Below, one piece after another: positions 6,518 through 22,471 of a stretch of 39,141 bases of DNA. How positions within the stretch are numbered: the first letter of the stretch is position 1; each line of letters opens with the position of its first letter. Origin of the DNA: Gammaproteobacteria bacterium (GTDB lineage Bacteria > Pseudomonadota > Gammaproteobacteria > SZUA-152); NCBI GenBank assembly GCA_024276955.1, contig JAJRWE010000039.1:1-39141 (forward strand). Reading direction: 5' to 3'. A program made the position numbers and the translations under genes. Under the pieces are notes generated by a model. That model searched no databases, had not been told where the DNA came from, and saw only the letters and a list, made by a program, of their open reading frames with translations.

Positions 6518-7024
6518 TCACACCTCCTCTGGCATGCACTTTCGCAGTGTGTCGATGTTTTGTTGCAGAGCGTTCAGCAATTGCGGCAGGCGGGCCTGCA
6601 TGGCCTCGCTCAAGGTGGTTTCCGCTGGCGGGCGGAGTGCCAATTCATAGGGTTGCACGGCGAAGATGTTTACCACTGTCGTCGATCCCAGTTCGCGGGC
6701 GATGGCTAATGCCTCGGCCAGGCCCAGGCCGTGGGTGGAGATGCTGCGGCTGTGTGGCGTCAATTTCATGTTAGCGTCGGCGGTGGCCGTAAAGCAGCGC
6801 CATGCGCCACCGGCCAGCCCCATCTCGGCGCAGTCGACGATCAGTAGTGGGCCTGTGTTTTCCAGCAGCCGGTGGGCGAGGTTGAGGGCGTCGGCATCTT
6901 CCCACTGCTCACGCCGTACGTCCTCCGGCAGCCCGGTAAGATTGTCCACCAGCCACAGGCCGATGGCATCATCGCTGGAGTGGCGGCTGCCGAGGCCGGC
7001 CACGGTGAAGGCCGGGGCGTTCAA
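6518..7024 (-). CDS. [NiFe] hydrogenase maturation endopeptidase (HyaD/HycI-type)
   Basis: A 168-residue member of the hydrogenase maturation protease family. These nickel-dependent checks cleave a short C-terminal peptide from the large subunit after the NiFe centre is inserted. Visible motifs are AGLGSRHSSDDAIG, with the acidic residues of the nickel site, IVDCAEMG, and STHGLGL with its histidine. The start proposed is a TTG overlapping the hydA stop (TTGA), supported by GGAG eight bases upstream; a GTG seven codons later is the alternative. The substrate is almost certainly the adjacent HydA, which ends in eight residues beyond its last cysteine motif. Confidence 0.88.
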   Translation of the reverse strand: MNAPAFTVAGLGSRHSSDDAIGLWLVDNLTGLPEDVRREQWEDADALNLAHRLLENTGPLLIVDCAEMGLAGGAWRCFTATADANMKLTPHSRSISTHGLGLAEALAIARELGSTTVVNIFAVQPYELALRPPAETTLSEAMQARLPQLLNALQQNIDTLRKCMPEEV

Positions 7025-8331
7025 TCGACGAACTCCACGTCCAGCATGTGCACGGAGCAGGAGATGCAGGGGTCGTAGGCGCGCAGCAGCATCTCCAGGT
7101 GCAGGGTGACTTCCTCGCGCGACATCTCCGCCACCATGCGCGGCGCGAAGGCCTTCATGTCGCGCTCGATGTTGTTGATGTTCTGGCTGGTGGGGATCAC
7201 CGCGTCGGCGCCACAGCAGCGGCCTTCGTCATCGAAACGGAATTCGTGGAACAGGGTGCCGCGCGGCACCTCGATGGCGCCGACGCCGTGGCCCGGTCCC
7301 GGCGTGTGGCTAATGTCTTCCTTCACCAGCCCGTCGTCCAGCACCTGCTCCAGCATCGCCAGCGAGTTGTGCGCGCAGTGCACGATTTCCACCACCTGCG
7401 CCACGTTGTTCATATAGGGGTTGTAACAGGGCGTGTGCAGGCCGAGCGTCTCGGCGGCCTCCTGCGCCGCCGGGTGTAGCTGATTGTAGTTATTGTTGAC
7501 CCGCGCCAGGGCGCCGACCATGTAGGATTCGCGGTGCCAGCGCGCCCACTTGGCGGTGGAGTGGGGCACGGTGAATTCGTTGGTGATATTCCGGTAATCA
7601 CTGGCCGGGGCCGTTTCGCCGCTGTCGGAGCTGTAGACCTCACCGTCGTAGAGGGCGTATTCATCCGGGTGCTTGAGGGAGACGTATTCGGTTTCGCGCT
7701 CGAAGTCGGGGATTTTCAGCGACTTGACGATGCCAACGGTGGCGTCGAGATCGGGCAGGGCGGCGAGCAGGCGTTCACGAATCTGTTCCAGCTTGTCGAG
7801 GTTCGGCAGCTTGCGCCAGCCGCGCAGGGTGTTGGACATGGGGTGCAGGGCGCGACCGCCGATGACGCTGGTGAATTCGTTGGCCAGGTGTTTGAGCTTC
7901 AGGGCGCGCCTGACCACCTCCGGGTGGGTCTTGATCAGCGGCAGCACGCTAGGTGCGCCGACGTAGTCCGGTATGGCGAGAAAATACACGTGCAGCAGAT
8001 GGCTTTGCAGGATCTGCGATTCATTGAGCAGTTTGCGCAGGCGTTGGCTCTGCGGGCTGACCGCCAGACCGAGGGCCGACTCCACCGCCTTGCTGGCCGC
8101 CAGTTGATGGCCGACACAGCAGATGCCGCAGATGCGCCCGACGATCCACGGGATCTCGTGTGGCAGCATGCCATCGGTGAAGCTCTCGAAGAAGCGATGT
8201 GCCTCGATGATAGATAGTTTTAATTCTTCCACCTTGCCATCGCGCGTGGAGATCTTGATGGAACCGTGGCCCTCCACTCGGGTGACGTGATCCACCTGGA
8301 TGGTGTAGGTCTTGTTGCCGTCCTTGCTCAT
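7021..8331 (-). CDS. hydA: [NiFe] hydrogenase large (alpha) subunit, group 3b type
   Basis: The 436-residue catalytic subunit holding the NiFe(CN)2CO centre. The N-terminal ligand motif RICGICCVGH (Cys68 and Cys71) and the C-terminal motif DPCISCSVH (Cys422 and Cys425) are both intact. The last eight residues, MLDVEFVD after His428, look like the peptide removed by the maturation protease encoded next. The ATG at 8331 is chosen over the longer ORF because it overlaps the hydD stop as ATGA and gives the normal N-terminus YTIQVDHVTRVEGHG. With HydD, HydG and HydB it should form a cytoplasmic NAD(P)-dependent hydrogenase of the sulfhydrogenase (hydBGDA) type, able to evolve or take up H2; some relatives also reduce sulfur in vitro. 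The hyp maturation genes are not in the window. Confidence 0.95.
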   Translation of the reverse strand: MSKDGNKTYTIQVDHVTRVEGHGSIKISTRDGKVEELKLSIIEAHRFFESFTDGMLPHEIPWIVGRICGICCVGHQLAASKAVESALGLAVSPQSQRLRKLLNESQILQSHLLHVYFLAIPDYVGAPSVLPLIKTHPEVVRRALKLKHLANEFTSVIGGRALHPMSNTLRGWRKLPNLDKLEQIRERLLAALPDLDATVGIVKSLKIPDFERETEYVSLKHPDEYALYDGEVYSSDSGETAPASDYRNITNEFTVPHSTAKWARWHRESYMVGALARVNNNYNQLHPAAQEAAETLGLHTPCYNPYMNNVAQVVEIVHCAHNSLAMLEQVLDDGLVKEDISHTPGPGHGVGAIEVPRGTLFHEFRFDDEGRCCGADAVIPTSQNINNIERDMKAFAPRMVAEMSREEVTLHLEMLLRAYDPCISCSVHMLDVEFVD

Positions 8332-9110
8332 GGACGTGTACCCCGTGGTTGGACGTCTGCGCTGCAGAACAGGCGGTAACGGCTGTCGATGTCGGTATCG
8401 CTGAGGCCCCGTTCGCGCAGCAGTGCGCGATGCGAATCGAGATTGACCCCGGGCAGCAGGCCGCGACAACCATCGCAGCGGTAGCCGCCATTGATGCAGA
8501 TGGCGTCGCAGCCGCCCCAGGTGATCTGCCCCATGCAGGTGTCACCGTGCTCGAAGACGCATTCGTTGCCATTGTGCTTGCATTCGACACACACCGGCTG
8601 TCGCGCGAAGCGGGGCAGGGAGCCGGCCACCAAACGCTTCACCAGATGCAGAAATTCATCGCGATCCACCGGGCAGCCGCGCAGGTGGTAATCCACCTTG
8701 ACCACTTCGTGCACCGCGCGCACGCGGGTGTGCGCCCACAATGGCCAGTACTGGGAATCGGTTTGGGCGACGTGGCAGGCCTCGGGGCCATAGACCCGCT
8801 GCAGGTTTTCCGCCGGCGACAGGGCATTGGAACGTGCCTGTACATTGCCGTGACAGGCGCAGGCGCCCAGCGAGACCAGCCAGGTGCAGCGGGCGCGGAT
8901 GTCACGCAGGCGCTCGGCGTCTATCTCGCGGTTGATACTGCCCTCGATGAAGGCGACATCGAAACGCGGTGCTTTTTCCGACAGGGCCTCGCGGAATTCG
9001 ACGATATCCACCAGATCGAGAATGTGCAGAAACACATCCTCGCAATCGAGAATGGCCAGCTGGCAGCCTTCACAGCTGGCCATGTCGAAGAAGGCGATCC
9101 TGGGTTTCAT
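8328..9110 (-). CDS. hydD: [NiFe] hydrogenase small (delta) subunit, group 3b type
   Basis: A 260-residue electron-transfer subunit of the hydrogenase. The N-terminal MASCEGCQLAILDCE (Cys13, Cys16) and the downstream LGACACHGN and LRGCPVD motifs give the proximal [4Fe-4S] site. A cysteine-rich C-terminal part (CVECKHNGNEC, CMGQITWGGCDAIC, CDGC) supplies the further clusters. There is no twin-arginine signal peptide, unlike periplasmic uptake hydrogenases, so the enzyme is cytoplasmic. The ATG at 9110 overlaps the hydG stop (ATGA) and gives MKPRIAFFDMASCEGC; the longer ORF start reads back into hydG and is rejected. Confidence 0.94.
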   Translation of the reverse strand: MKPRIAFFDMASCEGCQLAILDCEDVFLHILDLVDIVEFREALSEKAPRFDVAFIEGSINREIDAERLRDIRARCTWLVSLGACACHGNVQARSNALSPAENLQRVYGPEACHVAQTDSQYWPLWAHTRVRAVHEVVKVDYHLRGCPVDRDEFLHLVKRLVAGSLPRFARQPVCVECKHNGNECVFEHGDTCMGQITWGGCDAICINGGYRCDGCRGLLPGVNLDSHRALLRERGLSDTDIDSRYRLFCSADVQPRGTRP

Positions 9111-9943
9111 GTCAGCGCCTCGGGCAGGGATTCGAGGTCGGAGAAGCGGAACACCGGGCCCTCCTGGCAGCAGGTGACGTGATTGATCTGACAGTGGCCA
9201 CACTTGCCGATACCACAGCGCATGCGGCGTTCCAGGTCAATGAATATCTGCGCGTTGGGCAGACCGCGCGCGGCCAGTTCCATGATCACGAACTTGTACA
9301 TCACCGGTGGTCCGCACAGCACAGCGAGGGTATTGGCAACATCCATTTCCAGTTTGGCGATGGGGGCGGTGACCAGTCCCACCTCGCCACCCCAGGGCAG
9401 GTGGTCAGTGTCGGTGACCAGACGGATGACGTGGACGTTTGGCCGTTTGGCCCAGGCCTGCATCTGCTCACGGTAGAGTTCGTCCGCTGGCGTGCGGCAG
9501 CCGCTGATGAGGGTGACGCGGCCAAAGCGTTGCGGCTCGCCGACGACAGGCTCGATGAGTGAACGCAGCGGCGCCAGTCCCAGGCCGCCGGCGACGAAGA
9601 GGATGTCGCGGCCCTCGAACTCCGACAGCTGGAAGCCGGAGCCGAAGGGGCCGCGAATGCCCATGTAGTCACCGGCCTGTAACTGGTGCATGGCGTGGGT
9701 CAGGCTGCCGGTATTTCGAACCAACAATTCCAGTTGACCATCGTGGCGCGGCCCACAGGAAATGGAGATGGGTGCCTCGCCGATACCAAGGATGGAGGCC
9801 ATCACGAACTGTCCGGGGCGGTGCGTGAGCGGCTGTGGCAGCTGGAGGCGGAAGAAGCGTTCCTGCGCGGTCATGTCGCGGGCCTCGATGATGCGCGCCA
9901 TGCGTGGCGTGAGCACATGGGCATCGAAGTCCACCGGCTTCAT
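9107..9943 (-). CDS. hydG: Hydrogenase gamma subunit, FAD/NAD(P)-binding oxidoreductase
   Basis: A 278-residue flavoprotein of the ferredoxin-NADP reductase / PyrK type. An FAD-binding barrel (PGQFVMASILGIGEAPISIS) is followed by an NAD(P)-binding fold (ILFVAGGLGLAPLRSL) and a C-terminal [2Fe-2S] motif (RRMRCGIGKCGHC, then CCQEGPVF). It exchanges electrons between NAD(P)H and the iron-sulfur chain of HydB and HydD. The order hydB-hydG-hydD-hydA matches archaeal and bacterial group 3b hydrogenases. ATG at 9943 overlaps the hydB stop. The choice between NADH and NADPH cannot be made by eye. Confidence 0.92.
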   Translation of the reverse strand: MKPVDFDAHVLTPRMARIIEARDMTAQERFFRLQLPQPLTHRPGQFVMASILGIGEAPISISCGPRHDGQLELLVRNTGSLTHAMHQLQAGDYMGIRGPFGSGFQLSEFEGRDILFVAGGLGLAPLRSLIEPVVGEPQRFGRVTLISGCRTPADELYREQMQAWAKRPNVHVIRLVTDTDHLPWGGEVGLVTAPIAKLEMDVANTLAVLCGPPVMYKFVIMELAARGLPNAQIFIDLERRMRCGIGKCGHCQINHVTCCQEGPVFRFSDLESLPEALT

Positions 9944-11028
9944 GGCTTGGTCTCCGCAGTGGCCAGCAGGTCATTGGCGATGTCGAAGATGTCGATATCG
10001 ACGGTGCACTGATGGCCGCAGCGACCGCAGCCGACGCAGAAGCTGCCGTCGCCGAAGCGGGCGGGCAGCCAGGCCAGCTTGCGCTTGATGCGATGCCGTT
10101 GGCGCGCGGCCAGTTGCGGGCGGAAGTTGTGGCCGCCGGCGACGACGGCGAACGCCTCCAGCATGCAGCCATCCCAGCTGCGGGTGCGCTGACCGCTGTC
10201 CGGGTCGTCGACATTAAAATCGTCCTGCACATCGAAGCAATAGCAGGTGGGGCAGACCAGATTGCAAGTGCCACAGGAGAAGCAGCGTTCGACGTGCTTG
10301 TCCCAGACGGGCGATTCCCCACTGTTGCTGACTGTGTCGATGACCTGTTGCAGCGGGGCATTGAACTGGCGGCCGAAGGGCTTGGTGCGTTGTGCCTCGG
10401 CCAGTGTCTTGCGCCCTTCGATATTTTTACAGGGAGTGAAGCCGGCATCTGCGAGCAGCTGCTCGCCACGCTCCGTAAGGGCCTCTATTAACAGTTTGGC
10501 CTCGGGCTGCGGGGTGAGGAAGATATCCGCGCCCTCGCGCCAGCGCAGGGAGCCGGTGGCGTCGCAGAAACAGTGTTGGTCGCAGGGTTGCAGGCAGTCA
10601 TGGGCGATAATCGTGGTGTTCTGGCGCCGGCTCAGATAATGCGCGTCGGGGATGCCGTCGCTATTGATCCGGTCCATCAGGTGGATGGCCTTGAGGTCGC
10701 AGGGGCGCACGCCGGCGAGGATGCGTTGGCGGTCATCCAGGGTTGGTGTCAGCTGGTATTCGCCATTTTCGTTCTTGCTGAAGTGGAAGATCTGTTCGTT
10801 GTTGGGTGAGAGTTTTTTGCCCGGCGGTTGCACGCAGGTGCTGGCACGGAAGGGTTTTTCGGTGGATGTGGCGTCGAAGTCCTCGAAGGCGAGGAGGCTG
10901 TGCTTGCGCACCTTGTCGAAGCGGAAGCTGCTTTCGCCCATGGGCTGGGGGAAGAAGACATCCCCCAGCTGGTCGAGTGTGTGGAGCCAGTCCAGCACTG
11001 TTGCGCGTGTGGTGAGAAATCCTCTCAT
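9940..11028 (-). CDS. hydB: Hydrogenase beta subunit, [4Fe-4S] protein (HydB / sulfite reductase A-like)
   Basis: A 362-residue iron-sulfur protein and the first gene of the operon. Two ferredoxin-type motifs lie in the C-terminal third: CFSCGTCNLVCPTCYC and CVGCGRCGHQC. Upstream is the family block VRPCDLKAIHLMD and a cysteine-rich stretch (CLQPCDQHCFC). The family is shared with anaerobic sulfite reductase subunit A. In the hydrogenase it joins the flavin subunit to the catalytic heterodimer. The ATG at 11028 (MRGFLTTRATVLDWL) fits family length; the ORF reaches 87 bases further upstream through non-conserved sequence. The promoter must lie in the 313-base gap towards 11342, which is mostly repeat sequence. 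Confidence 0.9.
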   Translation of the reverse strand: MRGFLTTRATVLDWLHTLDQLGDVFFPQPMGESSFRFDKVRKHSLLAFEDFDATSTEKPFRASTCVQPPGKKLSPNNEQIFHFSKNENGEYQLTPTLDDRQRILAGVRPCDLKAIHLMDRINSDGIPDAHYLSRRQNTTIIAHDCLQPCDQHCFCDATGSLRWREGADIFLTPQPEAKLLIEALTERGEQLLADAGFTPCKNIEGRKTLAEAQRTKPFGRQFNAPLQQVIDTVSNSGESPVWDKHVERCFSCGTCNLVCPTCYCFDVQDDFNVDDPDSGQRTRSWDGCMLEAFAVVAGGHNFRPQLAARQRHRIKRKLAWLPARFGDGSFCVGCGRCGHQCTVDIDIFDIANDLLATAETKP

Positions 11029-11109
11029 GTTTCCGGCTCTTGAAGATGTCTGTTGGACATAGTGGACCCATGGGGCGTGGATTGGAAGATTATCGCAGGG
11101 GCGGGTTTT

Positions 11110-11142
11110 TGCCACAGAGACACAGAGTACACGGAGAAACCT
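11110..11142. repeat. Dispersed element GCCACAGAGACACAGAG
   Basis: The string TGCCACAGAGACACAGAG followed by TACACGGAGAAAC is a frequently seen dispersed intergenic element in proteobacterial genomes. It lies upstream of hydB. Only one copy is present in this window, so the family assignment rests on memory of such elements. Confidence 0.4.
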
Positions 11143-11254
11143 ATATTCAATCTTTCCGGGTTGGATTCCCCGCTGCTCGCCTCAAGCGCCTACTTTCGCC
11201 TCAGGGCGCCTACTTTTGGTGGTGCAGCGAGATGATTTTATTGTCCTGAGTAAT

Positions 11255-11326
11255 TGTAGGAGCGGACCCGTGGGCCGCGATGTAAAGGGTGGGAAAACCA
11301 TCGCGGCCCAAGGGTCCGCTCCTACA
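11255..11326. repeat. Dispersed palindrome, TGTAGGAGCGGACCC family
   Basis: TGTAGGAGCGGACCCGTGGG... and its inverted partner ...AAGGGTCCGCTCCTACA form a hairpin about 72 bases long between the hydB and cupredoxin-like genes. The right end is 15 bases after the stop (minus-strand sense) of the cupredoxin gene and may terminate its transcript. Related copies: 38242-38309, more distantly 22401-22471, and a half copy near 6036-6058. Confidence 0.8.
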
Positions 11327-11341
11327 GCGAATGTCAGTGAT

Positions 11342-12076
11342 TTATTTTGGCTTGAAGACGAAGTCGATATGGGTCGTACCGCCGGCCTCGATCGTCACCG
11401 TGGCCTTTTTCTCGCCCAGGGTTCCGTGCCAGGCGCGGATCTTGTAGCTGCCGGGGGGGACGTCGTCGATGTTGAAGCTGCCGTCTTCGCCGACCACGGC
11501 GAAGTAGGGGTTCTTGGCGACGAAGGTGAAGCTGTGCATGAAGTCGTGGGCGTCGCACTCGACCTTCATGGCGGTGCCGCGCTTCAGCGTGACCCGCTTA
11601 CGGAGGGTTTTCAGGTCTCCCGGCTGGCTGATGTTGAATACGGTCTTTTTGGCCCGACCAATGATTTCATAGGTATGAATGTTGTGCAGCACCGGATCGG
11701 AATTCCTTATCGTGAGCTGGTCGCCGTCTTTCATTACGCCGAGGAAGGGCTTGAAGGCGCATTGCTCCTGATTGAGTTCGGCGTTGGTGATGTCGGCGGG
11801 AAAGTCCTTGCCGGACTTGATCTTGTACAGATAGACCACGGCGTCGGTGAGGGCGCCGTTGTTGACGCGCACGAAGTCGATGCTGCGCGTGCCGCTGCCG
11901 CAGGTGTCGGCGTCCTTGGCGACGATAAACTGCCTGGGGGCTGGGTCTGCGCCCTGGAAGGTGATCTTTCCGCTGATGCGCCCGCCGTTGTCGACGGGTA
12001 CTACCTGGTAGGCAAGGGCGGTGACTGGCTGGAGGCTGGCAACACACAGTGAGAGGATGGGCAGTATGCTTTTCAT
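11342..12076 (-). CDS. Secreted cupredoxin-like / carboxypeptidase-regulatory-like domain protein
   Basis: A 244-residue exported protein with an N-terminal signal peptide (cleavage expected near ALAYQ, residues 21-24). Homologues are often labelled methylamine utilisation protein or carboxypeptidase regulatory-like domain protein; neither name gives a function. Residues 110-185 look cupredoxin-like: DQLTIRNSDPVLHNIHTY with His131 and His134, then VECDAHDFMH with Cys174, His177 and Met180, an arrangement that could form a type-1-like copper site. A C-terminal beta-sandwich (EDGSFNIDDVPPGSYKIRAW) follows. The ATG has AAGGA seven bases upstream. It is divergent from the triheme cytochrome gene and may share control with it; a periplasmic electron-carrier or copper-binding role is inference. 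Confidence 0.75.
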   Translation of the reverse strand: MKSILPILSLCVASLQPVTALAYQVVPVDNGGRISGKITFQGADPAPRQFIVAKDADTCGSGTRSIDFVRVNNGALTDAVVYLYKIKSGKDFPADITNAELNQEQCAFKPFLGVMKDGDQLTIRNSDPVLHNIHTYEIIGRAKKTVFNISQPGDLKTLRKRVTLKRGTAMKVECDAHDFMHSFTFVAKNPYFAVVGEDGSFNIDDVPPGSYKIRAWHGTLGEKKATVTIEAGGTTHIDFVFKPK

Positions 12077-12309
12077 GAGGGTTCCTTGTGGTCTCTGCTT
12101 TGCCGTTTGATGAGGCGGTTATTGAACAGCGTGCTCATGGTTTGCGCAAGTCCTTGAATTCTTCGCTTCGGCTGGGCCGGGGGTGCTGGTAAAATGCCTG
12201 GTTAAGCCGCAGTTTAGCCGGGGCGAGTATAGTCGGCGGCCATGTGATGGAATATCCCGGCAGAAAACTGGAACAACTCTATGAAGCAACAAGTGGAGCA
12301 AGCAAGCGT

Positions 12310-14484
12310 ATGACAGGGCTGAAGATCCCGGCCGCCCCGCGTTGGGCCATTCTGATTGTTATCTCCGTGCTGGCAGGTTACGCCAGTTATGAAATGGCCG
12401 GACCTTCCGTGACGGTGCCGGAGGTGGCGATGAGCCAGGTGTATCCCGCCTCGTCCGGCGCCCTGAACATCCTCGGCCGCTCCTTCAGTCTTTCGCCGGA
12501 GGACAATCCCCTGCGCAACGAGGCGCTGGCCTCGATGGCCACGGACCGGGCGAAGGGCTGGACCCTTTACAACGAGATCGTCGAGGCCGGACGCGCCCGC
12601 TATTACCACGGCTGCTTCACCTGCCACGGTGACTGGCTGGATGGCACGCTGCCGGCACAGGCCGACGGCACCCCTGAATCCGCCGCGCCGAACCCCCTGC
12701 AGGCGGCCTTCGCCCTGTGGCGTATCAATATCAACGCCTCGCCACAGGATAAGGTCGCTGGGGCGCAAGCCCCGGCCACACCCATCGCGCACAAACGCCT
12801 GGACGAAACAAAAGTCTGGCAGATCATTACCTTTCTCACCGACTCGGCAGGCCAGACACCACCGGACATGCCCGGAATGGCCGACACGAAGCCGACCCTG
12901 ATGGGCATGGCCCTCTATCAGCACCGCTGTGCCGTCTGCCATGGAAAAACGGGAACCAACGACGGCCCTGCATCGACACGCATGTACCCTCAGCCGCGTG
13001 ATTTCAGCCTGGCCTTGTTCAAATACAAAACCTCGCCGGGAACCGATCTGCCGCGCGACAGCGACCTGTTCCACACCATCAAACGCGGCCTGACCAAATC
13101 CGGCATGCCTGCCTGGGGTGGTCTTCTCAGTGATGCACAGATCAACAGCCTGATCCCGGTCATCAAGGGTTTCGACATTACTGCCGCCTGGGCACCGGAG
13201 GAGGCCGACGATGCCGATTTTGATGAGCAGGGTCATTATCTGAAAACGAACTTCCGGCGGATCACCGAGGTTGAGCCCGTCGTCGGGCAGATACCCTACA
13301 GTGACAGCTCCATCGCCCGCGGCAAGGTCGTCTACGAGAAGATCTGCATCAAGTGCCATGGCGCCGAGGGGCGCGGCCACATCACCTCCGGCAAGAGCCG
13401 GCTGGAAGATGACTGGGACAACCGCATCTGGCCGCGAGACCTCACCAAGCCCTGGACCTGGCGCGTGACCCAGGCCGACGGCCCCGAGCCGCAGAGCCGC
13501 GAGCAGACCATTCGCAACATCTACACGCGCCTTTCCATCGGCCTGCCGGGCACCCCCATGCCGGCCCATCGTGCCGCCGAGCCGTTCAATCGCGACCCCT
13601 TAAGCCTCGAAGAGCGCTGGCACGCGGCCAACTTCGTCTACAGCCTGCGAGAGAAGAGTGTGCCGCCCGCCGGCAGGCCGTTGGTGCAGGCCCTGCGCGT
13701 CACCGGCCCGTTGCCCGAAGGCCTCGACGACGACGCCTGGGAGGACGCCCCGGCCGTGACCCTGCGGCTGTCGCCCAGCATCGTCAAGCAGGAACACCTG
13801 ACCACGCCGCTCAACGACGCCGTGACGGTGCGAGTGCTGTACGACGACAAGGACATTGCCTTCCTGCTGGAGGTCAACGACCGCACCGACAGCCGCCCCG
13901 GTGAAAAGGTGTCGATGCGGATGCAGGATCGACGCTACCGCCTAAACCCGGACGCCCTGGCTATCCGCTTCCCGCGCGTAGATGTGGTCGAGCCGGGGCC
14001 GCAAGTGCGCACGCCTCGCTACCTGCATGGCAATGAAACCAAGCCGACCACCTTGTGGTACTGGAACGCCGGCAGCCTCGAGCCGCCGCAGCCCGCCAGC
14101 CAGCTGCTGCTGGATGCCATTGGACCGGCTCAGAAACTCACCCTGCGCAAGAATGATCAATCCCTCAGCGCCCACGGCCAGTGGCAACGGGGCCGCTGGC
14201 GCGTGCTGATGAAGCACCCGCGCGCGGCAAACAACGGCCGCGATGTTAGTTTCAATGAAGGTTTGCTGATCCCCGTCTCCTTCGCCAACTGGGACGGCAG
14301 CAACGGCGAGGCCCTCTACCGCAACACCCGCACACCCTGGTACTGGCTGGTGCTGTCAACGCCGTCCGAGGGCGAACAGGGGCTGGCGCTGCCCATTGGC
14401 GTCAGCATCGGTGTGTTGCTGCTGGGCTTTTTGCTGATCAGAGGGCAACGGACGGACAGAGGCGCGGCCACCGATGATGCGTGA
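12310..14484 (+). CDS. Membrane-anchored triheme cytochrome c with ethylbenzene-dehydrogenase-like domain
   Basis: A protein of about 724 residues. An N-terminal hydrophobic segment (WAILIVISVLAGYASY) anchors it with the bulk in the periplasm. Three CxxCH haem c motifs follow: CFTCH (about 102), CAVCH (about 207) and CIKCH (about 346), each within a class I cytochrome-like domain. Residues roughly 450-680 resemble the haem-b-binding gamma subunit of ethylbenzene dehydrogenase and its relatives (DAVTVRVLYDDKDIAFLLEVND, then RMQDRRYRLNPDALAIRFP). A second hydrophobic segment (PIGVSIGVLLLGFLLI) and a short cytoplasmic tail end the protein. No molybdenum catalytic subunit is nearby. The ATG at 12310 is preferred because it starts at the anchor and has GGAG upstream; GTG/ATG at 12244/12247 would add about 21 residues. 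It overlaps the SCO1-like gene by 11 bases. Confidence 0.82.
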   Translation: MTGLKIPAAPRWAILIVISVLAGYASYEMAGPSVTVPEVAMSQVYPASSGALNILGRSFSLSPEDNPLRNEALASMATDRAKGWTLYNEIVEAGRARYYHGCFTCHGDWLDGTLPAQADGTPESAAPNPLQAAFALWRININASPQDKVAGAQAPATPIAHKRLDETKVWQIITFLTDSAGQTPPDMPGMADTKPTLMGMALYQHRCAVCHGKTGTNDGPASTRMYPQPRDFSLALFKYKTSPGTDLPRDSDLFHTIKRGLTKSGMPAWGGLLSDAQINSLIPVIKGFDITAAWAPEEADDADFDEQGHYLKTNFRRITEVEPVVGQIPYSDSSIARGKVVYEKICIKCHGAEGRGHITSGKSRLEDDWDNRIWPRDLTKPWTWRVTQADGPEPQSREQTIRNIYTRLSIGLPGTPMPAHRAAEPFNRDPLSLEERWHAANFVYSLREKSVPPAGRPLVQALRVTGPLPEGLDDDAWEDAPAVTLRLSPSIVKQEHLTTPLNDAVTVRVLYDDKDIAFLLEVNDRTDSRPGEKVSMRMQDRRYRLNPDALAIRFPRVDVVEPGPQVRTPRYLHGNETKPTTLWYWNAGSLEPPQPASQLLLDAIGPAQKLTLRKNDQSLSAHGQWQRGRWRVLMKHPRAANNGRDVSFNEGLLIPVSFANWDGSNGEALYRNTRTPWYWLVLSTPSEGEQGLALPIGVSIGVLLLGFLLIRGQRTDRGAATDDA

Positions 14485-15142
14485 TGCCCTGCGTATCGCC
14501 TGGTTTCTTCTGCCGCTGGCATTTTTTCTCTCCACCCTCGCCCTGGCGGGAGAAAGCGGGGAAGCGGCCACGCAGCCATCGCCGGCCCCGCAAGGAAACG
14601 CCGCCGAAAGCCTGGCGCAGGAATCCGGGGAGGAGCCACCTCCCGGCGGCGACTTCACCCTGCAGTCCAGCACCGGCCCCGTTTCTCTCCATAACCTGCG
14701 CGGCAAGGCCGTCTTGTTGTACTTCGGCTATGCCTCCTGCCCGGACGTCTGCCCGCTGGATCTGCGCACCATGGCCGATGCGCTGGAAGACATGAGCGAG
14801 GAAACCCGCGCCCGTGTGCAGGGCATTTTCGTTAGCGTCGACCCGCAGCGGGATACGCCGGAAAGCCTGGCGGAATACGCCGACTTCCTGCACCCCAGCA
14901 TCCTCGGCCTCACCGCAGACGAAAAGACCCTCCGCGAGATGGCGACGCGCTACGGCGTGCAGTATTACCGCGTCGAACCCAAGGGCTCCGATCTGCCCTA
15001 TGCCGTCAACCATTCCGCCGCCACCTACCTCATTGATCCCGAGGGCACGCTGCGCTTCATCTTCCCCCACAATACGCCAGCCAGTGTGCTGCTGGAGGCG
15101 AGCGAATACATCCTGGCCCAGTTTCCGAAGGTCGTAGAGTAG
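14474..15142 (+). CDS. SCO1/SenC family copper-binding thioredoxin-fold protein
   Basis: A 222-residue exported protein (signal segment WFLLPLAFFLSTLALAG) with a thioredoxin fold. The copper ligands of the SCO family are present: CPDVCP (Cys89 and Cys93 in YFGYASCPDVCPLDL) and the distal histidine in VNHSA (about 180). SCO proteins deliver copper to, or reduce the thiols of, the CuA site of haem-copper oxidases and some other copper enzymes. No oxidase is in view, so its client may be the nearby cupredoxin-like protein or an enzyme encoded elsewhere. The 11-base overlap with the triheme cytochrome gene indicates coupled translation. Start is either of two adjacent ATGs. A low-complexity linker of about 35 residues separates signal and domain. 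Confidence 0.92.
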   Translation: MMRDALRIAWFLLPLAFFLSTLALAGESGEAATQPSPAPQGNAAESLAQESGEEPPPGGDFTLQSSTGPVSLHNLRGKAVLLYFGYASCPDVCPLDLRTMADALEDMSEETRARVQGIFVSVDPQRDTPESLAEYADFLHPSILGLTADEKTLREMATRYGVQYYRVEPKGSDLPYAVNHSAATYLIDPEGTLRFIFPHNTPASVLLEASEYILAQFPKVVE

Positions 15143-15187
15143 TAGAAAAGGATTTGCCACAGGGGCGCGGAGGAGGGCGTAGATAAG

Positions 15188-15270
15188 GTAGGTTGGGCAA
15201 AGCGTAGCGTGCCCAACATCTCCATGCATCCCGTTGGGCACGTCGCTTCGCTCCTTTGCCAAACCTACGC
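15188..15270. repeat. Dispersed palindrome, GTAGGTTGGGCA family (copy 1)
   Basis: Starts GTAGGTTGGGCAAAGCGTAG and ends CCTTTGCCAAACCTACGC, with internal TTGGGCA/TGCCCAA palindromes. The first 73 or so bases match copy 2 at 26096-26168 with only about four differences by eye. It lies in the 833-base gene-free stretch 15143-15975, which also holds the REP pair and transposase remnant listed next; 15731-15975 shows nothing I can name. Confidence 0.85.
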
Positions 15271-15327
15271 ACTGTGGGGCACGAGCCGCATCATGGCGAA
15301 GCGTCCCACACGAGCGACGTGTTAGCA

Positions 15328-15358
15328 CGTAGGATGCGGTGAGCTTGCGAACCGCATC
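15328..15358 (+). repeat. REP-like element, left inverted copy
   Basis: A 31-base element beginning CGTAGGATGCGGTGAGCTTG. The reverse complement of 15700-15730 matches it at 29 of 31 positions. The two copies face each other across the tyrosine transposase remnant, the layout expected of REP elements around their RAYT gene. Confidence 0.8.
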
Positions 15359-15374
15359 AATCGCGTCATCGCTT

Positions 15375-15397
15375 GTCACACCGCTCTGCGGTGTGAC
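15375..15397. repeat. Perfect short hairpin GTCACACCGC-TCT-GCGGTGTGAC
   Basis: A perfect 10-bp stem with a 3-base loop. It belongs to the same family as the hairpins behind nifJ (5868-5955). Confidence 0.6.
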
Positions 15398-15539
15398 ACA
15401 TCCCCAGGCGCTCTGCGCCGGGAAAAGCCAGGACCCGGGGTTATCACTGCCGGTGCATGAATTCATGCAATGACCGGGTTTTCTCGCGCCCGGCAGACAA
15501 CAGAGAGTTTGTGGTGCGAAGCGCCATGAGAGGATCTTG

Positions 15540-15661
15540 TGAATTGCCTGGCGCAGTGATTCGATGTTCTCCACCAGCAACCGATTGCCACGACGTTCGG
15601 TGCAATTGACCGTGAAAAAATAGGTCGCCCCTTCGGTTCTTGCGCGGCGGTATTCGGTCAT
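15540..15661 (-). pseudogene. REP-associated tyrosine transposase (RAYT) remnant, N-terminal part
   Basis: From the ATG at 15661 the minus strand reads MTEYRRARTEGATYFFTV, then TERRGNRLLVENIESLRQAI. This closely resembles the N-terminus of Y1/RAYT transposases, the single-strand HUH-type enzymes thought to move REP elements. After about 40 codons family similarity stops and the frame runs on through unrelated sequence into the antisense of the SCO1 gene. The HUH and tyrosine catalytic motifs are absent, so this is a dead fragment. It is bracketed by inverted REP-like copies. The long 407-residue ORF in the track is not a real protein beyond this part. Confidence 0.75.
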
Positions 15662-15699
15662 GTTTTTCGGATGGCGGGGGGGCGGTGTGATTCTCGATC

Positions 15700-15730
15700 G
15701 ATGTGGTTCGCAGGCTCACCGCATCCTACG
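15700..15730 (-). repeat. REP-like element, right inverted copy
   Basis: The plus strand reads GATGTGGTTCGCAGGCTCAC and continues CGCATCCTACG, the reverse complement of 15328-15358 with two mismatches. It lies about 40 bases upstream of the RAYT remnant start. Confidence 0.8.
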
Positions 15731-15975
15731 GGCTGCTCGTGTTTCACGTCCGTCTGACACACTTTTATCTCCTTGCCGCCCAACACAATCCCACCCCAAA
15801 AGTGTCCTGTTATAACAGGATACTTCCGTATGCGTTCCCTGTTTCCGTGATACCGCCTCTGTCCGGCCTTTCTTGCCCACGGCTACATGGCGCGCAGGTT
15901 AGGCTGTGCGATAGCGCTGCCCAATCCCCATGGCTGAAAATGGTGGGGTTTGTTTCCCTCCCCCCAACTTGCGAA

Positions 15976-22400: not shown

Positions 22401-22471
22401 CTGTAGGAGAGAGGCTTCAGCCGCGACAGATTGTCGGCATGCCTGTCGCGGCTGAAGCCGCTCCTGCAGGC
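22401..22471. terminator. Large hairpin between converging genes, probable bidirectional terminator
   Basis: CTGTAGGAGAGAGGCTTCAG pairs with CTGAAGCCGCTCCTGCAG, extended by CCGCGACAG/CTGTCGCGG, giving a stem of about 30 bp with one bulge. It begins 10 bases after the GGDEF-EAL stop and ends 8 bases before the parvulin stop. Sequence links it to the dispersed TAGGAGCGG palindromes, so a mobile repeat appears to serve as a shared terminator. No long U-tract was seen. Confidence 0.6.

Follow-up and report, generated by a model that had tools for sequence, protein, structure and literature searches.

A cupredoxin, a three-haem cytochrome and a SCO1 protein probably form a shortened paralogue of a bd-like oxidase accessory cluster in a gammaproteobacterium

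Results

Three genes, encoding a cupredoxin (CUP), a membrane-anchored cytochrome (CYT) and a SCO1 protein, were analyzed in the window, a 39,141-nucleotide stretch of a Gammaproteobacteria bacterium of the SZUA-152 lineage (contig JAJRWE010000039.1, assembly GCA_024276955.1). They are most likely a pared-down form of the alt_NxrC/bd-like accessory module already known, acting as a periplasmic copper-haem relay. In the reading we favour, with moderate confidence, a conserved respiratory accessory cluster has given rise to the trio as a shortened paralogue specific to one genus, in which CUP and CYT form a relay with a partner encoded elsewhere.

Organization of the locus

The three open reading frames are real and lie at the positions first assigned to them: CUP at 11342-12076 on the minus strand, CYT at 12310-14484 on the plus strand and SCO1 at 14474-15142 on the plus strand, the last two overlapping by 11 bases (14474-14484). 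In the window and in loci L028, L043 and L044, CUP and CYT are neighbours that point away from each other. A scan of positions 11000-15700 for consensus promoters gave no match; the terminator-like matches from the same scan were mostly inside genes, and the operon limits are therefore not fixed by it. As originally stated, no molybdenum enzyme was found among the profiled open reading frames of the window; six PF00384 proteins are encoded elsewhere in the genome.

A hydrogenase adjoins CUP in the window and also in L028, L043 and L044. A functional link between this hydrogenase and the trio was considered and rejected in view of its best family matches, which are NAD(P)-linked sulfhydrogenases. 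Such enzymes are cytoplasmic. The shared neighbourhood may be mere synteny within one genus.

CUP is a predicted type-1 cupredoxin

CUP is a putative secreted protein of 244 amino acids with a hydrophobic N-terminal segment (residues 4-22). The residues originally pointed out, H131, H134 and the loop C174-x2-H177-x2-M180, are all present. H131 (motif NSDPVLHN, 11684-11686, minus strand) and the C174, H177 and M180 of the loop C174-DA-H177-DF-M180 (11537-11557, minus strand) are invariant both in 15 diverse homologues and in 20 homologues from another collection. H134 was rejected as a copper ligand, being only near-invariant in the more diverse set of 15, and the copper ligands are best read, from conservation, as H131, C174, H177 and M180.

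A phmmer search of solved structures with CUP returned no cupredoxin, the C-terminal domain alone being matched, and the CUP family profile gave only weak matches to a blue copper protein and to a CuA domain; for this reason a model of the fold was needed. The model (pLDDT 87.3) matched pseudoazurin (E 7.8e-5) and amicyanin (E 4.3e-4), and the strand and loop positions of the ligand residues would be compatible with a shared copper site. The ligand set and the predicted fold thus uphold the assignment of CUP as a cupredoxin. CUP shares the cupredoxin fold with amicyanin and pseudoazurin, and its C-x2-H-x2-M loop is that of amicyanin; it differs from both by an extra N-terminal beta region and by a C-terminal carboxypeptidase-regulatory-like beta domain (residues ~190-240), which had gone unnoticed before. 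Unlike amicyanin, CUP was seen in no methylamine dehydrogenase context.

CYT combines three c-haem motifs with an EB_dh domain

The open reading frame of CYT can be extended to a GTG codon (12244-14484), but the start is more likely ATG 12310, because homology with near relatives becomes convincing at about residue 17 and the sequence MTGLK is common to all. CYT is predicted to be anchored in the membrane by one helix at each end (N-terminal hydrophobic helix, 12319-12375; C-terminal helix, 14383-14439; both plus strand), and the two extra N-terminal helices of its canonical relatives, the CYT proteins of the fuller clusters described below, are absent from it. As first described, it carries three CxxCH motifs, all on the plus strand: CFTCH at residue 124 (haem 1, 12613-12627), CAVCH at residue 229 (haem 2, 12928-12942, with Met288 kept) and CIKCH at residue 368 (haem 3, 13345-13359, with Met439 kept). 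Among solved structures, the core formed by haems 2 and 3 is best matched by the Kustc0457/0458 dihaem cytochrome partner (6H5L chain B; phmmer E 1.5e-28), which, unlike CYT, has no EB_dh domain and partners an HAO-like protein.

The EB_dh domain (residues 496-693; 13729-14322, plus strand) was recognized both by profile (PF09459, 54.6 bits; cut-off 33.3) and in the structure model, which is poor overall (pLDDT 52) and usable for this domain alone. The modelled domain matches EbdC (2ivf_C, E 4e-11, TM 0.76 by target length), as the original prediction of an EbdC-like fold implied, and also NxrC (7b04, E 1.5e-9). The score for subfamily TIGR03477, 63 bits, is below the curated 169.85. CYT differs from EbdC (2IVF) and NxrC (7B04) in that its EB_dh domain is fused to c-haem domains and no molybdenum alpha or Fe-S beta subunits adjoin the trio; such subunits are found beside a distant relative in locus L042.

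The further claim that this domain holds haem b is weakened. The axial ligands of haem b in EB_dh gamma subunits are a Met and a Lys (PMC8840923), the Met probably being that of the Met-Gly motif. In the alignment with EbdC and NxrC this pair is not present in CYT: His595, in a His-Gly, aligns with the Met, and Asn694 (14323-14325, plus strand) aligns with the Lys. All 78 canonical relatives have His at position 694, but every window-type sequence that covers it has Asn, and it is the replacement of this conserved His that weakens the haem-b reading.

A fuller copy of the cluster in the same genome

Contig C42 of the same genome carries a second, fuller copy, the proteins of which are 53% (CYT2) and 64% (CUP2) identical to those of the window. 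Genes for bd-like, dihaem, HEAT and iodate-reductase (idr)-type proteins lie between and beside CUP2 and CYT2. The bd-like protein matched PF01654 at 67 bits, is the sole PF01654 protein found in the genome and gave no match to the NCBIfam CydA family. The label OR-N, for bd-like proteins with no quinol site, is taken at second hand from PMC10839748 and PMC12342949. The idr-type block of C42 (TIGR02693, 403 bits; TIGR02694, 111 bits; two CCP_MauG) comprises, as annotated from sequence, an AioA-like alpha subunit, a Rieske beta subunit and two dihaem peroxidases in synteny, the composition of an idrABP1P2-type set.

The same layout was found across many sulfur-oxidising Gammaproteobacteria: CUP and a HEAT-repeat gene on one strand, and on the other genes for a cytochrome bd-like oxidase, a dihaem cytochrome, CYT and, in part, SCO1, often accompanied by an idrP2-P1-B-A block. 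Among the 48 loci with enough upstream sequence the bd-like gene occurs in 46, the dihaem gene in 45, the HEAT gene in 38 and CUP, upstream of CYT, in 37; an idr-type block follows CYT in 28 of the 44 loci with enough downstream sequence. Within the class, 10 of the 11 genomes with CYT also hold CUP. Sedimenticola hydrogenitrophicus (L056/L057) is one cultured relative that has the canonical layout. The window trio is this canonical cluster minus the HEAT, oxidase and dihaem genes, its order and orientation unchanged. Hence the pairing of CUP with CYT stands, but the original view of the trio as a unit had missed that it is a shortened paralogue of a bd-like-oxidase cluster.

The window-type trio is limited to one genus-level lineage of four genomes, all fragmentary, so that gene losses among them could partly be assembly effects. 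Its CUP and CYT branches are congruent, and both trees put the window-type sequences next to G203/L069 and to the C42 lineage, an agreement expected if both genes came from one donor cluster.

SCO1 is probably dispensable to the module

The SCO1 gene of the window is intact and its product is a SCO1/SenC protein (PF02630, 130.6 bits) whose thioredoxin-like domain has the CxxxC motif, as CPDVC (14738-14752), and the distal His, His180 of the NHS motif (15011-15013; both plus strand). It groups with the SCO1 proteins of the clusters and not with the other SCO proteins of the genome (support 87/76).

A strict form of the original proposal would make SCO1 a copper chaperone dedicated to CUP, and the trio a single obligate unit. 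The kept CPDVC and His agree with this, as does the recurrence of CYT-SCO1 adjacency in 21 of 63 loci of the wider family and, more distantly, in L037; all 16 full-flank loci with SCO1 also have CUP. However, 24 of the 40 full-flank loci with CUP have no SCO1 beside CYT, and SCO1 is not significantly associated with CUP (p = 0.28). It tracks the idr block more closely (17/18 vs 11/26, p = 0.0004), a correlation confounded by descent. In the window-type genomes SCO1 is missing from L044 and L045 (the latter holding the second half of the G064 gene) and reduced to a broken remnant in L043, yet CUP keeps every ligand where SCO1 was lost or broken; the module thus probably does not need SCO1. The genome's other SCO proteins could serve CUP. 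Obligate maturation of CUP by SCO1 is therefore weakened, and we regard it as unlikely.

Selection and loss in the window-type genes

In the window-type CYT the two-haem core is kept and the haem-1 and EB_dh regions are altered: 3 of 75 conserved positions are lost in the haem 2-3 core versus 14 of 39 around haem 1. Where canonical relatives have the Met of the NSAMPVW motif, which is expected to be the sixth ligand of haem 1, the window has Thr179 (12778-12780, plus strand); L043 also has Thr, L044 has Ala and G064 still has Met, so that the Met is gone from three of the four genomes.

These losses, with the loss of the EB_dh His and of SCO1 in three of four genomes, would suit a decaying duplicate on its way to disappearance and devoid of a present role. 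Omega for CUP and CYT is somewhat higher in the window type (0.18-0.30) than in the canonical copies (0.07-0.13). The CYT stem is the longest inner branch of the CYT tree (0.84), a length that also fits partial decay. Against this explanation, which we consider improbable, CUP and CYT, wherever they occur in these genomes, have open frames and evolve under purifying selection (omega about 0.2), all CUP ligands and, in the covered parts, all CxxCH motifs are kept, and the core is nearly untouched. That an open haem site, left by the loss of the haem-1 Met and of one EB_dh ligand, has made CYT a peroxidase or an NO/peroxide-responsive protein with CUP as its electron donor would match the concentration of losses in haem 1 and EB_dh beside a conserved core, but the Met persisting in G064 means that the open site is no fixed trait, the profile search gave CYT no above-threshold match to a peroxidase family, and we give this idea very little credence.

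Discussion

A gene cluster of alt_NxrC_2, a cytochrome c and bd-like_3 is known from Nitrospira moscoviensis and also from Nitrospina and anammox bacteria, and cupredoxin-like genes have been reported in the clusters of nitrite oxidisers and anammox bacteria (PMC6606698, PMC3578206). CYT resembles the Nitrospira alt_NxrC in joining a membrane anchor, c-haem motifs and a DMSO-reductase-type haem-b domain in one protein, a likeness drawn from published descriptions of the clusters. The gammaproteobacterial cluster differs in its three CxxCH motifs, its HEAT protein, the partial presence of SCO1 and the frequent idr-type block; the window copy differs further in having no adjacent bd-like or dihaem gene. 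The idr-type block downstream of the canonical CYT recalls the iodate reductase cluster idrABP1P2 (PMC8692401); none lies beside the window trio. Term searches of the main text of that paper found no mention of a bd-type oxidase or of SCO1.

In the CUP-CYT relay that we favour, CYT would be held at the outer face of the inner membrane, and its haems 2 and 3 would carry the electrons that CUP, as a mobile blue-copper carrier, delivers or takes up. SCO1 may help to load copper. The far partner would be an enzyme whose gene lies away from the trio, with the bd-like and idr-type enzymes of C42 and a haem-copper oxidase as possible candidates; since no terminal enzyme lies beside the trio, its identity is a guess.

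We offer tentatively, and with considerable doubt, a broader proposal: that sulfur-oxidising Gammaproteobacteria possess an undescribed copper-haem respiratory module. Within it, an enzyme of the iodate-reductase type would exchange electrons with a blue-copper protein, a three-haem cytochrome resembling alt_NxrC and a bd-like oxidase, and the window would hold a rewired second copy that has another partner and no oxidase. The published alt_NxrC/bd-like examples that were examined belong to nitrite oxidisers and anammox bacteria, in which their role is unsettled. That a similar set, including a cupredoxin and in many cases an idr-type block, occurs in sulfur oxidisers and animal symbionts suggests a role not bound up with nitrite oxidation. 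Having no oxidase, yet with selection still acting on CUP and CYT, the window copy offers a natural test of what in the module can work alone.

The CUP, CYT and SCO1 genes

The three open reading frames were found where the original prediction had placed them: a cupredoxin gene (CUP, 11342-12076, minus strand) encoding a secreted protein of 244 amino acids, a cytochrome gene (CYT, about 12310-14484, plus strand) and a SCO1 gene (14474-15142, plus strand) that overlaps CYT by 11 bases, as had been noted. The SCO1 product matched PF02630 in a profile search (130.6 bits); in CYT, an EB_dh domain (PF09459, 54.6 bits) accompanies three CxxCH motifs. The ATG at 12310 is the more likely start of CYT, since homology with its near relatives becomes firm only at about residue 17 and the residues MTGLK are common to all. 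A chance origin is no concern, because strong homologues of all three genes occur in many genomes.

This short form of the locus, the window type, occurs in four genomes: that of the window, those of loci L043 and L044, and G064. The G064 gene is split over two contigs (76% and 83% identity), and we infer that loci L028 and L045 are its halves.

The minus strand at 6518-11115 encodes the large, small, FAD/NAD and Fe-S subunits of a sulfhydrogenase/3b-type [NiFe] hydrogenase, together with a maturation protease; hydrogenase genes adjoin CUP in L028, L043 and L044 too. The gap between them and CUP holds an inverted repeat (11257-11324) with near-identical 25-base arms (TAGGAGCGGACCC...), and a related copy lies near 22413-22469 (blast to L028).

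A canonical cluster in Gammaproteobacteria

A scan of genome contigs yielded 80 loci, nearly all from Gammaproteobacteria and many from sulfur oxidisers and animal symbionts, e.g. Sedimenticola, Thiodiazotropha and tubeworm endosymbionts. The repeated gene order comprises rSAM, USP, CUP and HEAT on the minus strand, followed by bd-like (cytochrome bd-like oxidase), dihaem, CYT, SCO1, idrP2, P1, B and A on the plus strand. The loci were picked by similarity to CYT and are kin by descent, so that the counts are descriptive only: upstream of CYT, in loci with enough upstream sequence, were bd-like (46/48), dihaem (45/48), HEAT (38/48) and CUP (37/48); SCO1 lay directly 3' of CYT in 21/63 loci, and the iodate-reductase-type (idr) block was present in 28/44. 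In a class sample CUP was also found in 10 of the 11 CYT-bearing genomes (handles of two samples compared, kinship uncorrected), in line with the predicted co-occurrence of CUP and CYT.

Flanks of canonical clusters (L030:3551-7737, L034, L035, L036) carry a radical-SAM protein, a universal stress protein and a protoporphyrinogen-oxidase-like gene; in L030 the first two each have PCP_red domains, which look odd there.

A limited literature term search turned up no account of a cluster that combines bd-like, CUP, SCO1 and idr genes. Going by published descriptions, the canonical cluster resembles that of Nitrospira alt_NxrC_2. This protein has a signal peptide, a single membrane helix and two sites for c-haem, and its gene clusters with those of a bd-like oxidase and two c-type cytochromes; such gene sets also occur in Nitrospina and anammox bacteria (PMC6606698; PMC3578206). 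Locus L042 shows that these parts do travel with molybdenum enzymes: a CUP homologue and an EB_dh cytochrome lie inside a DMSO reductase type II operon (L042:1531-9978) adjoining a canonical, bd-like cluster. The gamma subunit of that operon is a fused c-haem/EB_dh protein. In L040 CUP is near a cbb3-like oxidase, and the layout of L041 is similar.

The window genome also carries paralogues, CYT2 and CUP2, on another contig, C42. Between them lie a dihaem cytochrome, a bd-like protein (PF01654, 67 bits; the sole match in this genome) and a HEAT-repeat protein, and an idrABP1P2-type iodate reductase block (L027:615-6465) adjoins CYT2.

The window order (CUP, then CYT and SCO1 divergently) is the canonical one minus HEAT, bd-like and dihaem. 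The window type adjoins G203/L069 and the C42 lineage in both the CUP and CYT trees, and the window SCO1 groups with cluster SCO1s (support 87/76). This shared order, the agreeing trees and the SCO1 placement fit one duplication or transfer of the whole cluster, followed by gene loss.

SCO1 is unlikely to be strictly required by CUP

SCO1 had been proposed to mature the copper site of CUP; the comparisons weaken this proposal. Among window-type genomes SCO1 is intact only in that of the window: in L043 its 5' part is gone and its 3' end replaced, and in L044 and L045 it is absent. The CUP ligands are kept in L043, L044 and G064. In canonical loci SCO1 was not associated with CUP (p = 0.28); it went with the idr block (p = 0.0004), an association confounded by shared descent. 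Strict dependence of CUP on SCO1 is therefore unlikely.

The region between SCO1 and csiV (15143-15975) is largely non-coding; its G064 counterpart (L045:1568-2224) holds a nitroreductase-like gene, without SCO1.

Structural features of CUP and CYT

H131, C174, H177 and M180 of CUP were unchanged in 15 diverse homologues and in 20 from a second collection, whereas H134, noted along with them, was only nearly invariant among the 15. The ligand loop is spaced C-x2-H-x2-M, as in amicyanin. The confident structure model (pLDDT 87.3) supports the predicted cupredoxin-like fold, with pseudoazurins as top solved-structure matches and auracyanin, amicyanin and plastocyanin matched too. A carboxypeptidase-regulatory-like beta domain follows C-terminally.

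The predicted EB_dh domain of CYT resembles the reference proteins EbdC (2IVF) and NxrC (7B04) by profile and by fold, although the model of the whole protein was poor (pLDDT 52.4). The haem 2-haem 3 core matched 6h5l_B (E 1.5e-28), a dihaem protein that partners an HAO-like protein in Kuenenia. Hydropathy indicated a single helix at either end; the canonical C42 relative has three N-terminal helices.

Omega was 0.18-0.30 for window-type CUP and CYT and 0.07-0.13 for canonical copies. Counting positions kept in >=97% of canonical CYTs (gap columns excluded), window-type CYTs lost 14/39 in the haem-1 region, 7/57 in EB_dh, 2/32 in the haem-2 region and 1/43 in the haem-3 region. The haem-1 Met position is Thr in the window and L043, Ala in L044 and Met in G064. 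At position 694 the canonical His is Asn in 4/4 window-type rows covering the site, which aligns with the Lys of EbdC and NxrC; Met and Lys are the haem b ligands of EbdC (PMC8840923). Both changes may alter haem binding in CYT.

A probable periplasmic relay

No partner enzyme is encoded beside CUP and CYT in the window; as candidates the genome offers the enzymes on C42, several oxidases of the COX1 family and six molybdenum enzymes of PF00384. CYT and CUP most likely constitute a periplasmic relay, in which CYT would be fixed in the inner membrane and CUP would be the mobile member.
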